Below are positions 24,373-44,239 of a DNA stretch of 64,000 bases, piece after piece. The DNA lies in the NCBI RefSeq assembly GCF_947492555.1, contig NZ_CANLNE010000001.1:1-64000 (forward strand). Reading direction: 5' to 3'. The notes under the pieces were generated by a model. The model searched no databases. It was not told the DNA's origin and worked only from the letters and a program-made list of their open reading frames with translations. The DNA comes from an uncultured Roseobacter sp. GTDB taxonomy: Bacteria > Pseudomonadota > Alphaproteobacteria > Rhodobacterales > Rhodobacteraceae. The position numbers and the translations under genes were made by a program. Within the stretch, counting starts at the first letter, position 1. Every line of letters begins with the position of its first letter.

Positions 24373-25770
24373 TTACATGTGGATGACGCGGCCGTAGGCG
24401 TCGAGCACGGACTCGTGCATCATCTCGCTGAGGGTCGGGTGCGGGAAGACGGTGTTCATCAGGTCTTCCTCGGTGGTCTCAAGCTGGCGACCCACAACAT
24501 AGCCCTGAATGAGTTCGGTCACTTCCGCACCAACCATGTGCGCGCCCAGCAGCTCGCCCGTCTTGGCATCAAAGATCGTCTTGATCATGCCTTCCTGCTC
24601 GCCCAGAGCAATCGCCTTGCCGTTGCCGATGAAGGGGAAGCGGCCCACCTTGATCTCGTAGCCAAGTTCCTTGGCCTTGGCCTCGGAATAGCCGACGGAG
24701 GCGACCTGCGGGTGGCAATAGGTGCAGCCTGCGATGCTCTCGGGCTTCACCGGGTGCACGTCATTCTGCCCGGCCATCAACTCGGCGACCATAACGCCCT
24801 CGTGGCTCGCCTTATGCGCCAGCCACGGGGCACCGGCGATGTCACCAATGGCATAGAGCCCGTCGACACCCGTACGGCAGAATTCATCCGTGACCACATG
24901 GGTGCGGTCGATCTTGACGCCAAGCGCTTCGAGGCCAAGCCCTTCCACATTGCCGACAATCCCCACCGCAGAGATCACCGTGTCGAACTCGTGTTTCTCG
25001 ACCTTGCCGCCCACCTCAATATGGGCGGTGACCTTGCCCTTGCCGCGATCAAGCTGCTTGACCATGGCCTTCTGCATGATCTTCATGCCCTGCTTTTCGA
25101 AGGATTTTTTCGCAAAGGCAGAGATTTCGGCGTCTTCCACGGGCAACACGCGGTCCATCACCTCGACCACGGTCGTATCGGCCCCCAGTGTGTTGTAAAA
25201 GCTGGCAAATTCAATGCCGATGGCTCCAGACCCGATCACCAGCAGTTTCTTGGGCATGTGCTTGGGCTGCAGCGCGTGTTTGTACGTCCAGACCAGATCG
25301 CCGTCCGCCTCCAGACCCGGCAATTCGCGCGCACGGGCGCCGGTGGCCAGCACGATATTCTTGGCGGTCAATTCTTCGGTGGCCTTGTCGGTTTTCACGC
25401 TGACCTTGCCCTTGGCAGGGATCGTGGCCTCGCCCATGAAGACGGTGACCTTGTTCTTCTTCATCAGGTGGCCGATGCCGCCCGACAGCTGCCCCGCCAC
25501 CTGACGCGAACGTTTCACCACCGCATCGAGATCGTAACCCACGTTATCGGCTTTCAGGCCGAATTCCTTGGCCCGGTGCATCAGGTGGAAGACTTCGGAG
25601 GAGCGCAGCATCGCCTTGGTTGGGATGCAGCCCCAGTTGAGGCAAATGCCGCCCAGATGTTCGCGTTCGACGATGGCAACGGACATCCCCAGCTGCGCGC
25701 CCCGGATCGCGGCCACATAGCCGCCGGGGCCTGCCCCAATCACAATCAGATCAAAGGATTTCGCAGCCAT
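24373..25770 (-). CDS. lpdA: Dihydrolipoyl dehydrogenase (E3)
   Basis: The protein has 465 residues. The N-terminal FAD-binding GAGPGGYVAAIRGAQLG and the redox-active disulfide in GGICLNWGCIPTKAML are intact. So are the NAD-binding GSGAIGIEFASFY and the C-terminal interface segment HPHPTLSEMMHESVLDA near the end. It reoxidises the lipoyl groups of 2-oxoacid dehydrogenase complexes. A 20-bp palindrome 30 bp upstream of its ATG is almost the same as the one before pdhA at 40459, which strongly suggests that it supplies E3 to the pyruvate dehydrogenase complex and is co-regulated with it. GAGGACATGTC precedes the ATG. Confidence 0.97.
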   Translation of the reverse strand: MAAKSFDLIVIGAGPGGYVAAIRGAQLGMSVAIVEREHLGGICLNWGCIPTKAMLRSSEVFHLMHRAKEFGLKADNVGYDLDAVVKRSRQVAGQLSGGIGHLMKKNKVTVFMGEATIPAKGKVSVKTDKATEELTAKNIVLATGARARELPGLEADGDLVWTYKHALQPKHMPKKLLVIGSGAIGIEFASFYNTLGADTTVVEVMDRVLPVEDAEISAFAKKSFEKQGMKIMQKAMVKQLDRGKGKVTAHIEVGGKVEKHEFDTVISAVGIVGNVEGLGLEALGVKIDRTHVVTDEFCRTGVDGLYAIGDIAGAPWLAHKASHEGVMVAELMAGQNDVHPVKPESIAGCTYCHPQVASVGYSEAKAKELGYEIKVGRFPFIGNGKAIALGEQEGMIKTIFDAKTGELLGAHMVGAEVTELIQGYVVGRQLETTEEDLMNTVFPHPTLSEMMHESVLDAYGRVIHM

Positions 25771-25795: not shown

Positions 25796-25823
25796 AAATA
25801 TAGTTTACCGTTAAACTATATTT
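25796..25823. promoter_or_regulatory. Palindromic operator upstream of lpdA, shared with pdhA
   Basis: A perfect inverted repeat with 12-bp arms surrounds a 4-nt spacer (AAATATAGTTTA and TAAACTATATTT). Its core on the lpdA coding strand is ATAGTTTAACGGTAAACTAT, which differs by one base from the core before pdhA at 40459-40478. The core ends 30 bp from the lpdA start codon, so a bound regulator would block or contact RNA polymerase. The regulator is unknown. Confidence 0.8.
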
Positions 25824-40368: not shown

Positions 40369-40458
40369 GCGCTTAGCGCCCTAATACCTGACAATTAAAC
40401 GGGCTGCTGACCACGCGTCAGATTGCCCCTCGCCTTACGCGCGCGAATCCGATAAAGA

Positions 40459-40478
40459 ATAGTTTAACGCTAAACTAT
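40459..40478. promoter_or_regulatory. Palindromic operator upstream of pdhA, shared with lpdA
   Basis: ATAGTTTA (40459-40466) and TAAACTAT (40471-40478) flank ACGC, giving ATAGTTTAACGCTAAACTAT, 38 bp before the pdhA start. The lpdA copy at 25800-25819 differs in one spacer base only. Because the two sites precede genes for one enzyme complex, they are probably bound by the same regulator. Confidence 0.8.
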
Positions 40479-40516
40479 CTGCCCGTAGCCGGGTGAGACG
40501 AGGGAGAACCGCTCAG

Positions 40517-41527
40517 ATGGCACCGCGAAAATCCACCAAAAAACCGAATGTTTCTGCGGAAGAGCTCAAGGCCTATTACCGCGATATGCTGCTGATCCGG
40601 CGGTTCGAGGAAAAGGCGGGCCAGCTTTACGGCATGGGGCTGATTGGTGGGTTCTGTCACCTCTACATCGGGCAGGAAGCGGTCGTCGTTGGCCTCGAGG
40701 CGGCAGCAGAAGAAGGCGACAAGCGCATCACCTCCTACCGCGATCACGGCCATATGCTGGCCTGCGGCATGGACCCCAACGGCGTGATGGCCGAACTGAC
40801 GGGTCGCGAAGGCGGCTATTCCAAGGGCAAGGGCGGCTCCATGCACATGTTCTCCAAGGAGAAGCATTTCTATGGTGGCCACGGCATCGTTGCGGCGCAG
40901 GTGCCGCTGGGCGCGGGCCTCGCTTTTGCGGATAAGTACAAGGAAAACGGTCGGGTCACCTTCACCTACTTCGGGGATGGTGCTGCAAACCAGGGCCAAG
41001 TCTACGAGGCCTTTAACATGGCCGCCCTGTGGAAACTGCCCTGTGTGTTTGTCATCGAAAACAACCAATATGCGATGGGCACGTCGCAGCAACGCTCCAC
41101 CTCCTCCGCTGAAATTTACGAACGCGGCAAGTCCTTTGGCATTCCCGGCGAGGCCGTGGATGGCATGGATGTGCTGGCAGTCAAAGAAGCGGGCGAAAAG
41201 GCCGTGGCGCACTGCCGCTCCGGCGACGGCCCCTATATTCTCGAGATCAAGACCTATCGCTACCGGGGGCACTCGATGTCCGACCCGGCCAAGTACCGGA
41301 CCCGCGAAGAAGTGCAGAAAATGCGCGACGAGCGGGATCCGATCGAACAGGTTCGTTCGCTTCTGCTCACCGGCAAACATGCCAGCGATGAGGATCTCAA
41401 GGCGATCGACAAAGAGATCAAGGAAATCGTGAACGACAGCGCTGAGTTCGCCAAAACCTCACCGGAGCCGGCTGTCGAAGAGCTCTGGACCGATATTTAC
41501 GCCACAGAAGTTCCGCAGGAGGCTTGA
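40517..41527 (+). CDS. pdhA: Pyruvate dehydrogenase E1 component, alpha subunit
   Basis: The protein has 336 residues. The thiamine diphosphate motif reads GDGAANQGQVYEAFNMAALW with IENNQYAMGT closing it. SYRDHGHMLACGMDP and the phosphorylation-loop-like YRGHSMSDPAKYRTREE are also present. With PdhB it decarboxylates pyruvate and loads the acetyl group on E2 lipoyl arms. The start at MAPRKSTKK follows GAGGGAGA by about 10 nt; the eight-codon extension to 40493 has no signal. It is the first gene of pdhA-pdhB-pdhC, with spacers of 3 and 12 bp. The palindromic operator at 40459 is upstream. Confidence 0.97.
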   Translation: MAPRKSTKKPNVSAEELKAYYRDMLLIRRFEEKAGQLYGMGLIGGFCHLYIGQEAVVVGLEAAAEEGDKRITSYRDHGHMLACGMDPNGVMAELTGREGGYSKGKGGSMHMFSKEKHFYGGHGIVAAQVPLGAGLAFADKYKENGRVTFTYFGDGAANQGQVYEAFNMAALWKLPCVFVIENNQYAMGTSQQRSTSSAEIYERGKSFGIPGEAVDGMDVLAVKEAGEKAVAHCRSGDGPYILEIKTYRYRGHSMSDPAKYRTREEVQKMRDERDPIEQVRSLLLTGKHASDEDLKAIDKEIKEIVNDSAEFAKTSPEPAVEELWTDIYATEVPQEA

Positions 41528-41530
41528 TCC

Positions 41531-42913
41531 ATGGCAACAGAAATTCTCATGCCCGCTCTGAGCCCAACAATGGAAGAAGGCACGCTGGCCAAATGGCTGG
41601 TTAAGGAGGGCGATACCGTCTCCTCCGGCGACATCATGGCCGAGATCGAAACCGACAAGGCCACGATGGAATTCGAGGCCGTCGATGAAGGCACCATCGG
41701 CAAGATCCTCGTGGCCGAAGGGACCGAAGGGGTGAAGGTGAACACCGCCATCGCGGTCTTGCTGGAAGACGGCGAAAGTGCCGATGATATCGACACATCG
41801 ACGCCCGCACCGGAGGCGGCACAGGCCGCCGACGCGGGCAACGAGGCGGCCCCTGCGGCCTCCGAGGCGCCCGCCCCTGCCCCTGCAGCGCCCCAAACAG
41901 ACAGCACGCCCGACTGGCCGGAAGGCACCACGCTGAAACAGCAAACCGTCCGCGAGGCGCTGCGCGATGGCATGGCCGAAGAGATGCGCCGCGACGACAG
42001 CGTCTTCCTGATGGGAGAAGAGGTTGCCGAATACCAAGGCGCCTATAAGATCAGCCAAGGCATGCTCGATGAGTTCGGGGCCAAACGCGTGATCGACACG
42101 CCGATCACCGAACATGGCTTTGCCGGGATCGCCACAGGGGCAGCCTTCGGCGGTCTGCGCCCAATTGTCGAATTCATGACCTTCAACTTCGCCATGCAGG
42201 CCATCGACCAGATCATCAACTCAGCCGCAAAAACCCTCTACATGTCCGGTGGTCAGATGGGTGCGCCCATGGTCTTCCGTGGTCCCAACGGTGCCGCCGC
42301 CCGCGTGGGTGCGCAGCACAGTCAGGATTACGCGGCCTGGTACATGCAGGTACCGGGGTTGAAGGTCGCGATGCCCTACTCCGCCTCCGACTACAAAGGC
42401 CTGATGAAGACCGCGATCCGCGATCCCAACCCGGTGATTTTCCTGGAAAACGAAATCCTCTACGGGCGCAGCTTCGACGTACCGGATCTCGATGACTATA
42501 CGGTACCGTTCGGCAAGGCACGCATCTGGCGCGAAGGCTCGGACGTGACCATCGTCAGCTTCGGTATTGGCATGAGCTATGCCCTCGCCGCCGCCGATCA
42601 GCTGGCAGAGGAAGGCATCTCCGCCGAGGTCATCGATCTGCGTACCCTACGCCCGATGGACACAGACAGCATTCTCAAATCGGTGATGAAGACCAACCGC
42701 TGCGTTACGGTTGAAGAAGGCTGGCCACAGGGCTCCGTCGGCAACTATATCTCAAGCGTCATCATGCAGCAGGCCTTCGACTATCTGGATGCCCCGGTGA
42801 TCAACTGCACAGGCAAGGATGTGCCCATGCCTTATGCGGCAAACCTTGAAAAACTCGCGCTGGTGACCACTGACGAGGTCGTCGCTGCCGTGAAGCAAGT
42901 CACCTACAAGTAA
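41531..42913 (+). CDS. pdhB: Pyruvate dehydrogenase E1 component, beta subunit with N-terminal lipoyl domain
   Basis: The protein has 460 residues. Residues 1-80 are a lipoyl domain ([16 protein letters not shown], lipoylation Lys in [16 protein letters not shown]), followed by an Ala/Pro linker. From about residue 135 it is E1-beta ([51 protein letters not shown]). The extra lipoyl domain on E1-beta is a known feature of many alphaproteobacteria. Its DNA is almost identical to the start of pdhC. The subunit binds E2 and closes the E1 active site. Confidence 0.97.
41534..41889 (+). repeat. Direct repeat encoding the lipoyl domain, copy in pdhB
   Basis: This 356-bp segment matches 42929-43284 without any insertion or deletion at a constant offset of 1395 bp. 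Only scattered, mostly third-position, differences are visible. It spans the lipoyl domain and most of the Ala/Pro linker. Such closeness inside one operon suggests gene conversion keeping the two domains alike. Confidence 0.85.
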
Positions 42914-42925
42914 GGAGCGCATCAG

Positions 42926-44239
42926 ATGCCGACAGAAATCCTCATGCCCGCTCTGAGCCCTACCATGGAAGAGGGCACGCTGGCCAAATGGCACGTTAAA
43001 GAAGGTGACACCGTCTCCTCCGGCGACATCATGGCCGAAATCGAAACCGACAAGGCCACGATGGAATTCGAGGCCGTCGATGAAGGCACCATCGGCAAGA
43101 TCCTCGTGGCCGAGGGCACCGAAGGTGTGAAAGTGAACACCGCCATCGCGGTCTTGCTGGAAGAAGGCGAAAGTGCCGATGATATCGACACGTCGACGCC
43201 CACGCCGAAGGCGACACAAGCCGCCGACGCGGGCAACGAGGAGGCCCCTGCGGCCTCCGAGGCGCCCGCCCCTGCTCCGGCAGCAGGCAGTACCCCTGCC
43301 CCACAGGCCGCAGATGGCACCCGGATCTTCGCCTCTCCGCTGGCACGTCGGATTGCGGCTGACAAGGGTCTGAACCTCGCGGATATCAAAGGTTCCGGCC
43401 CGCATGGTCGGATCATAAAAGCGGACGTCGAGGGCGCCAGTGCGGCCCCCAAACCAGCCGCCGCCAATGCGCCTGCAGCGGCTCCTGCAGCTGCGGCACC
43501 GGCCGCTGGCCCGGCGGCGGACGCGGTCATGGCGATGTACGATGGGCGCGACTACGAGGAAATCAGCCTCAACGGCATGCGCAAAACCATTGCGGCGCGC
43601 CTGACAGAAGCCAAACAGTCGATCCCGCATTTCTATCTGCGTCGGGACATCGAACTGGATGCACTGCTGAAGTTCCGGGGCGAGCTGAACAAGCAGCTTG
43701 AAAGCCGCAGCGTGAAGCTCTCCGTCAACGATTTCATCATCAAGGCCTGCGCCCTGGCGCTGCAATCCGTGCCGGACGCAAATGCCGTTTGGGCGGGCGA
43801 CAGGATGCTAAAACTGAAACCCTCCGACGTTGCCGTGGCCGTTGCCATTGAAGGCGGGCTGTTCACACCCGTCCTGAAAGACGCCGAGATGAAATCGCTC
43901 TCCGCGCTGTCAGCAGAAATGAAAGATCTCGCCGGGCGTGCCCGGGATCGGAAGCTCGCGCCGCGCGAGTATCAGGGCGGCAGCTTTGCCATCTCGAACC
44001 TCGGGATGTTCGGCATCGACAACTTCGATGCGGTTATCAACCCTCCACATGGCGCTATTCTGGCCGTCGGCGCGGGCGTGAAAAAACCGATTGTTGGAAA
44101 AGACGGAGAACTCGCGGTGGCGACGGTCATGTCCGTCACGCTTTCTGTCGATCACCGCGTCATCGACGGCGCATTGGGTGCGAAATTGTTGCAGGCAATC
44201 AAGGAAAACCTCGAGACCCCGATGACAATGCTCGCGTAA
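42926..44239 (+). CDS. pdhC: Pyruvate dehydrogenase E2 component, dihydrolipoyl acetyltransferase
   Basis: The protein has 437 residues. One N-terminal lipoyl domain (Lys in [16 protein letters not shown]) is followed by an Ala/Pro linker. A peripheral-subunit-binding domain near residues 132-168 comes next ([34 protein letters not shown]), then a second Ala-rich linker. The catalytic acetyltransferase domain has the conserved His-Asp motif in [17 protein letters not shown]2 forms the core of the complex and makes acetyl-CoA. AAGGAG lies 8 nt before the ATG. A perfect 13-bp-stem terminator follows. Confidence 0.97.
42929..43284 (+). repeat. Direct repeat encoding the lipoyl domain, copy in pdhC
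   Basis: This is the second copy of the 356-bp direct repeat described for pdhB (41534-41889). Beyond it the two genes have no resemblance, because the reading continues into the E1-beta catalytic part in one and the subunit-binding domain in the other. Confidence 0.85.

Follow-up and report, generated by a model that had tools for sequence, protein, structure and literature searches.

The window, a stretch of 64,000 nucleotides at the start of a contig of an uncultured Roseobacter sp., carries genes of the pyruvate dehydrogenase complex at two places. On the (-) strand lies lpdA (24373..25770), found in the open reading frame list, which encodes a dihydrolipoamide dehydrogenase (E3) of 465 aa with the Pfam domains Pyr_redox_2 and Pyr_redox_dim. 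On the (+) strand stand pdhA (40517..41527; pyruvate dehydrogenase E1 alpha, 336 aa; E1_dh), pdhB (41531..42913; E1 beta with an N-terminal lipoyl domain; Transket_pyr, Transketolase_C and Biotin_lipoyl) and pdhC (42926..44239; E2 dihydrolipoamide acetyltransferase; 2-oxoacid_dh, E3_binding and Biotin_lipoyl). A palindrome precedes the genes at each place. Positions 25800-25819 read ATAGTTTACCGTTAAACTAT, or ATAGTTTAACGGTAAACTAT on the lpdA strand, 29 bp ahead of the lpdA ATG at 25770, with outer symmetry that reaches about 25797-25822; ATAGTTTAACGCTAAACTAT at 40459-40478 ends 38 bp ahead of the pdhA ATG at 40517. Both follow the pattern TAGTTTA-N4-TAAACTA. We treat them as the operator of lpdA (25800..25819, (-) strand; core TAGTTTAACGGTAAACTA on the gene strand) and that of pdhA-pdhB-pdhC (40459..40478, (+) strand; core TAGTTTAACGCTAAACTA), on the strength of the sequence, a genome scan and sites of the same kind before Lpd and PdhA elsewhere. 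The earlier note had reported that the two palindromes differ at one spacer base, which the sequence confirms, and that they lie 30-38 bp before the start codons, close to the distances measured. It had also held a chance origin to be very unlikely. At up to 3 mismatches the 20-base pattern matches these two places only within the window, and 100 shuffles of the window yielded 0 matches, so the pair is far beyond chance.

Scanned over the whole 4.44-Mb genome (G000), the 18-base core has three matches with no more than 2 mismatches, before lpdA, pdhA and maeB. The third site, with 1 mismatch, is at C1:800357-800374, 24 bp before maeB, whose Pfam domains (malic, Malic_M and PTA_PTB) make it a malic enzyme plus PTA domains. 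The reversed pattern, run as a control on the same genome, gave 8 places at up to 2 mismatches and 0 at up to 1. Pyruvate is the product of malic enzyme, and the three sites therefore frame one metabolic node. Weaker sites (TAGTTYAN4TRAACTA, up to 3 mismatches) number 72 in G000 against 244 for the reversed control, hence there is no excess of them in this genome.

The same association recurs among relatives. A survey of 19 genomes of the genus gave 53 matches with no more than 1 mismatch, and every one of them precedes pdhA, lpd or maeB, as do three chosen places with 2 mismatches. Orthologues of lpdA at 84-98% stand beside the operator in 12 other loci. In the family survey (149 genomes, one per genus), 111 genomes have at least one site at up to 1 mismatch. 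We then took a census of 132 fetched places, made up of the 53 genus places, the three hand-picked 2-mismatch places and the family places among the matches listed, leaving out G157:C99:299 and two places in G076. The gene downstream is PdhA in 48, Lpd in 40, MaeB in 38 and AceE in 1, that is 127 of 132, at median distances to the start codon of 28 bp (PdhA), 30 bp (Lpd) and 24 bp (MaeB). The motif's being frequent genome-wide, or missing before pdhA and lpdA orthologues, would have spoken against the proposal of the earlier note; the 4.44 Mb instead contain it 3 times, each time at the pyruvate/acetyl-CoA node, and it is conserved before these genes across genus and family. The idea of an undescribed PDH regulon is thereby supported, and the regulon is wider than was claimed, taking in malic enzyme also and, in one genome, an aceE-type E1.

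That last site (L081:1501-1518, G184) is a perfect operator 41 bp before a pyruvate dehydrogenase E1 gene, in a genome that has the regulator described below (71% identity). The gene is putatively of the homodimeric, aceE type, Pfam giving only Transketolase_N for the part examined; if it is truly aceE-type, the operator follows function and not DNA. The remaining 5 of the 132 census sites (L034, L042, L332, L344 and L345) have no target gene downstream and are not counted as regulon members. Perfect operator copies are seen at L034:1501-1518 (G108), before a threonine dehydratase-like gene, and at L042:1501-1518 (G046), by phhB-like and peroxiredoxin-like genes, all named from translations; these could be lineage-specific targets or chance. 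Three of five non-regulon places with 1-2 mismatches (L259, L262 and L260) were inspected, and none of the three had a clear promoter context; L259 lies inside an ABC-transporter ATPase frame and L262 between converging genes.

Where the operator lies with respect to the promoter was judged from conservation, the -10 and -35 elements being assigned by eye, an assignment that is weak for maeB. Among 23 aligned promoters of pdhA, of which a single genus supplied 12, an A/T-rich -10-like element, CGATAAA (40450-40456), is conserved just upstream of the pdhA operator. Only a few bases separate this element from the operator, so that the start of transcription would fall within the operator, probably at 40461..40472 on the (+) strand, and the stretch from operator to start codon (40479..40516, (+) strand) has what looks like a ribosome binding site, GAGGGAGAA, at about 40500. 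Most of 13 lpd promoters have a TTG about 19 bp upstream, which suggests that there the operator covers the -10. Further upstream of the pdhA operator, between 40420 and 40458, a CTCGC box, present in several genera, and a CGAATCCGATAAA stretch are conserved; they are perhaps the core promoter or the site of a second regulator.

In other families of the class, a scan found sequences very similar to the operator that come in tandem pairs, followed by a nitroreductase-like gene and then by a gene of the MarR family. In outgroup genomes with a homologue of this MarR, the nitroreductase-like gene adjoins it in 19 of 21 loci; a tandem pair is present in 15, with the two sites 20-24 bp apart (21 in 8 of the 15), while 6 lack a tandem pair of this operator. 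At L237, L240 and L246 the first of the two sites takes up the spacer that separates TTGACA from a TATA-like -10. Tandem operators in nitroreductase-MarR loci tie the motif to this MarR subfamily.

G000 has two good homologues of the outgroup operator-linked MarR, one an orphan and one a nitroreductase-linked copy. A third homologue (C1:382763; helix SGTMTHR) is only distantly related and was rejected. The most likely regulator of the PDH operator, as judged from sequence, is the orphan, a MarR protein of 147 aa (G000:C2:462795-463235) whose gene sits between a carbon-nitrogen hydrolase gene and ubiG. Its recognition helix, TRGAMTNTL, is the helix of the MarRs found beside this operator, and a back-translated pattern for GAMTNT codons matches the whole genome once, at this gene. 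Pfam assigns MarR_2 (3.1e-10, 40.5 bits; cut-off 27) and MarR (2.5e-06, 27.7 bits; cut-off 24.6), and the predicted structure (pLDDT 92.3) is a confident MarR winged-helix fold, whose best listed matches in the PDB are regulators of the MarR type, several of these together with operator DNA. None of the 8 listed named NCBIfam MarR subfamilies (HpaR, FabT, BagL/FevM and others) reaches its cut-off, the best score being 32.8 bits against 230; nor does the protein belong to the GntR family, as would a regulator of the PdhR regulon. The earlier note had listed MarR among its candidate families, and the findings now point to a single protein of that family. Its gene was expected to carry the same site but does not, as the 9.5 kb around the orphan (L094) hold no stretch with fewer than 6 mismatches. 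The G000 protein has no cysteine, which makes control by cysteine oxidation unlikely, although some orthologues have one. Homologues were listed at 587 places or more, and the named carriers among the 80 best include Roseobacter, Ruegeria, Sulfitobacter, Roseovarius and Phaeobacter species, Roseobacter sp. WL0113 and R. cerasinus being nearest (98%).

Helix and operator vary together. We tabulated 36 nitroreductase operons; L236, L255, L289 and L290 were omitted because no nitroreductase neighbour was seen there. Where the helix is of the GAxTN kind (n = 15), the operator is nearer the PDH type in 14, with 1 tie; where H replaces N (TxMTH and kin; n = 21, all Rhodobacteraceae), it is nearer the CGATATCG-centred type in 20, with 1 tie. 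The CGATATCG-type pattern was written after the operators had been seen, and the contrast is essentially that of one Rhodobacteraceae clade with other families. The nitroreductase-linked paralogue of G000 (C1:707471-707905) has the helix KTSMTHT and an operon operator of the TGGTGCGATATCG type; its neighbour's name is weak, the nitroreductase-like gene scoring 19.8 bits against the Pfam cut-off of 23.5.

Four loci with other helices (L244, L248, L253 and L254) were placed in neither class, and their operators are intermediate or different. The helices KPSMTAT, KASMGEV and RATMTNT in outgroup operons adjoin other palindromes (TTAGCTAA, an AAGG..CCTT-like one and a hybrid, CGATATC), which suggests that the natural code linking helix to operator in this subfamily is wider still. 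L289 (G119) and L290 (G143) are MarRs with GAMTN/GAMSN helices; the sequence read around them showed no neighbouring nitroreductase, and their genomes have neither a PDH-type regulator nor a site at up to 1 mismatch.

A quick, unrooted tree places the MarRs of the PDH type in one clade and the nitroreductase-linked MarRs of the Rhodobacteraceae in a second. We think it probable that a MarR repressor, which elsewhere in the Alphaproteobacteria governs its own nitroreductase operon, was duplicated in the Rhodobacteraceae, that the orphan kept the ancestral operator and took over the PDH and malic enzyme genes, and that the nitroreductase-linked copy changed both its helix (GAMTN to TTMTH) and its operator (from an AACGTT to a CGATATCG centre), insulating the two circuits. 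Given such a tree, the direction and date of the duplication are tentative readings.

The regulator and the operator also occur together. Among the 132 genomes that are at least 90% complete, 99 combine the regulator with a site at up to 1 mismatch, 15 have the regulator without such a site, 1 has a site without the regulator and 17 have neither (Fisher p 8e-12, a value that ignores relatedness); for all 149 genomes the counts are 106, 19, 5 and 19. One genome without a regulator match was taken to be G145, by elimination. The five with sites and no detected regulator are G051, G086, G096 and G114 (74-83% complete) and G077. The pdhA promoter of G077 has no operator; those of G051 and G114 have it, so that in these two the regulator gene is either missing from the assembly or too divergent.

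The discordant genomes were read more closely at pdhA. The set comprised 38 of the 43 genomes lacking regulator or site (19 of 19 with a regulator and no site, 19 of 24 without a regulator), G051, G086, G096, G114 and G140, all less than 90% complete, being omitted. No match to PdhA was obtained in 11 of the 38, and in G103 the region is truncated by a contig end, which left 26 promoters to read. A diverged pdhA operator is found in 17 of 17 readable promoters of regulator-bearing genomes without a site at up to 1 mismatch (16 at up to 1 core mismatch and one, G033, at 2), and an operator in 0 of 9 without the regulator. Ten other regulator-bearing promoters, picked for having a pdhA site, lie outside the 17, and the promoters of L035 and L052, of indeterminate regulator status, were excluded from this comparison. 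At maeB, a site is present in 6 of 12 regulator-bearing and 0 of 18 regulator-less genomes of the divergent set (12 of the 19 and 18 of the 24 discordant genomes, respectively), which makes maeB a less constant member of the regulon. On the best PdhA tree the presence of the regulator changes about 6 times, only 2 of them on well supported (starred) branches, and a sign test on those 2 is not significant because they are so few. The regulator, too, is missing from nine of the 11 genomes in which PdhA had no match (G035, G065, G072, G084, G089, G112, G120, G143 and G145), as though it had been lost when another E1 type took over.

From the site and its context, their conservation, the co-occurrence and the covariation of helix and operator, we infer binding, repression and an effector, and consider it very likely that a repressor of the MarR family, most likely C2:462795-463235, has the palindrome as its operator and coordinates pdhABC, the unlinked lpdA and maeB by occluding their promoters until an effector releases it. 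A MarR dimer would set its TRGAMTNTL recognition helices into the two TAGTTTA halves. With the operator predicted to lie over the -10 or start region at pdhA and lpd, the most likely mechanism is occlusion, the bound dimer covering this region and blocking RNA polymerase. The effector that would release the repressor is probably a metabolite of the pyruvate node, and the regulon would couple pyruvate supply (maeB) with conversion to acetyl-CoA (pdhABC and lpdA).

Another protein might bind the operator. The nitroreductase-linked paralogue was considered first because of its higher identity, being 55% identical to the query MarR that adjoins this operator in another family (the orphan is 47% identical), but it was set aside as PDH regulator on its helix and the operator of its operon, both of which differ, and because the Rhodobacteraceae nitroreductase operons lean so consistently to the CGATATCG type. 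With the regulator as query, moreover, a second match at E <= 1e-18 occurs in 27 of 149 genomes, a count that may miss weaker copies, against 111 with the motif. As for regulators of another family, a LacI-type regulator is predicted to control malic enzyme and PdhAB in R. sphaeroides (PMC4344238), and MaeB falls in a cceR mutant of P. denitrificans (PMC11323563). The site of CceR is not known to resemble the palindrome motif. Binding by the paralogue or by a regulator of another family seems improbable.

A somewhat less improbable departure, though still unlikely, is that the MarR protein activates the PDH genes, or acts on them in both directions, instead of simply repressing them: the enzyme is central and presumably needed under most conditions, and the operators are close to start codons, with start sites that are themselves predicted from sequence. 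Against this, at pdhA and lpd the operators share bases with -10-like elements or come after them, and in the three nitroreductase operons with a site in the -35/-10 spacer a bound dimer would exclude polymerase. The 8-bp stem and 4-base loop near the ribosome binding site could also be read as an RNA hairpin in the 5' leader, acting on translation or mRNA stability. We give this very little credence, since 19 of 29 pdhA operators (27 from regulator-bearing genomes, 2 of indeterminate regulator status) have at least one unpaired arm position even with G-U allowed, related sites occupy the -35/-10 spacer, where no transcript would include them, and presence of the palindrome tracks a DNA-binding protein. 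Closely related genomes do share long promoter stretches, yet chance similarity or common ancestry of promoter DNA without function is next to inconceivable when the operator stands before three unrelated genes, and in one case before an aceE-type gene, in many genera amid differing flanking DNA, and is absent where the regulator is absent.

Roseobacters and related bacteria are heterotrophs abundant in the sea, and what becomes of much of the carbon that they take up is decided at the pyruvate/acetyl-CoA node. A search of open-licence PMC full text, judged by titles and the starts of abstracts, found no MarR-type pyruvate dehydrogenase regulator in these bacteria, nor a dedicated MarR-type regulator of this node with such a short site. 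The nitroreductase and PDH branches of one MarR subfamily offer clean helix/operator pairs for the change of DNA specificity after duplication and, if the duplication and insulation proposed above are true, a natural test, at the level of residues, of how paralogous repressors separate.

Of the closest known systems, PdhR has a motif that is not known to resemble this palindrome. PdhR, a GntR-family regulator of the Enterobacteriales, is described as controlling pyruvate dehydrogenase genes in response to pyruvate (PMC5343134); the proposed regulator would also control such genes, but is a MarR, and its targets would be pdhABC, a separate lpdA and maeB in place of aceEF-lpdA. CceR of Rhodobacter and Paracoccus overlaps in malic enzyme and, by prediction, PdhAB (PMC4344238, PMC11323563), yet it belongs to the LacI family and has a broad glycolysis/gluconeogenesis regulon. 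Also close are the MarR-family metabolic repressors such as HcaR, CouR and PcaV, which PMC5487221 presents as dimeric winged-helix proteins with a palindromic operator near the promoter and release by a ligand; the protein fold, the promoter-near palindrome and the presumed ligand release are alike. The repressors described there serve catabolic pathways and are often divergent from or adjacent to their targets (PMC5487221), whereas the MarR proposed here would be unlinked to its targets and act on central carbon metabolism. The nitroreductase-MarR operons of other Alphaproteobacteria (among L235-L255) are of the same MarR subfamily, with the same operator sequence in 15 of 21 loci, and differ in having tandem sites, an adjacent target and, presumably, autoregulation.
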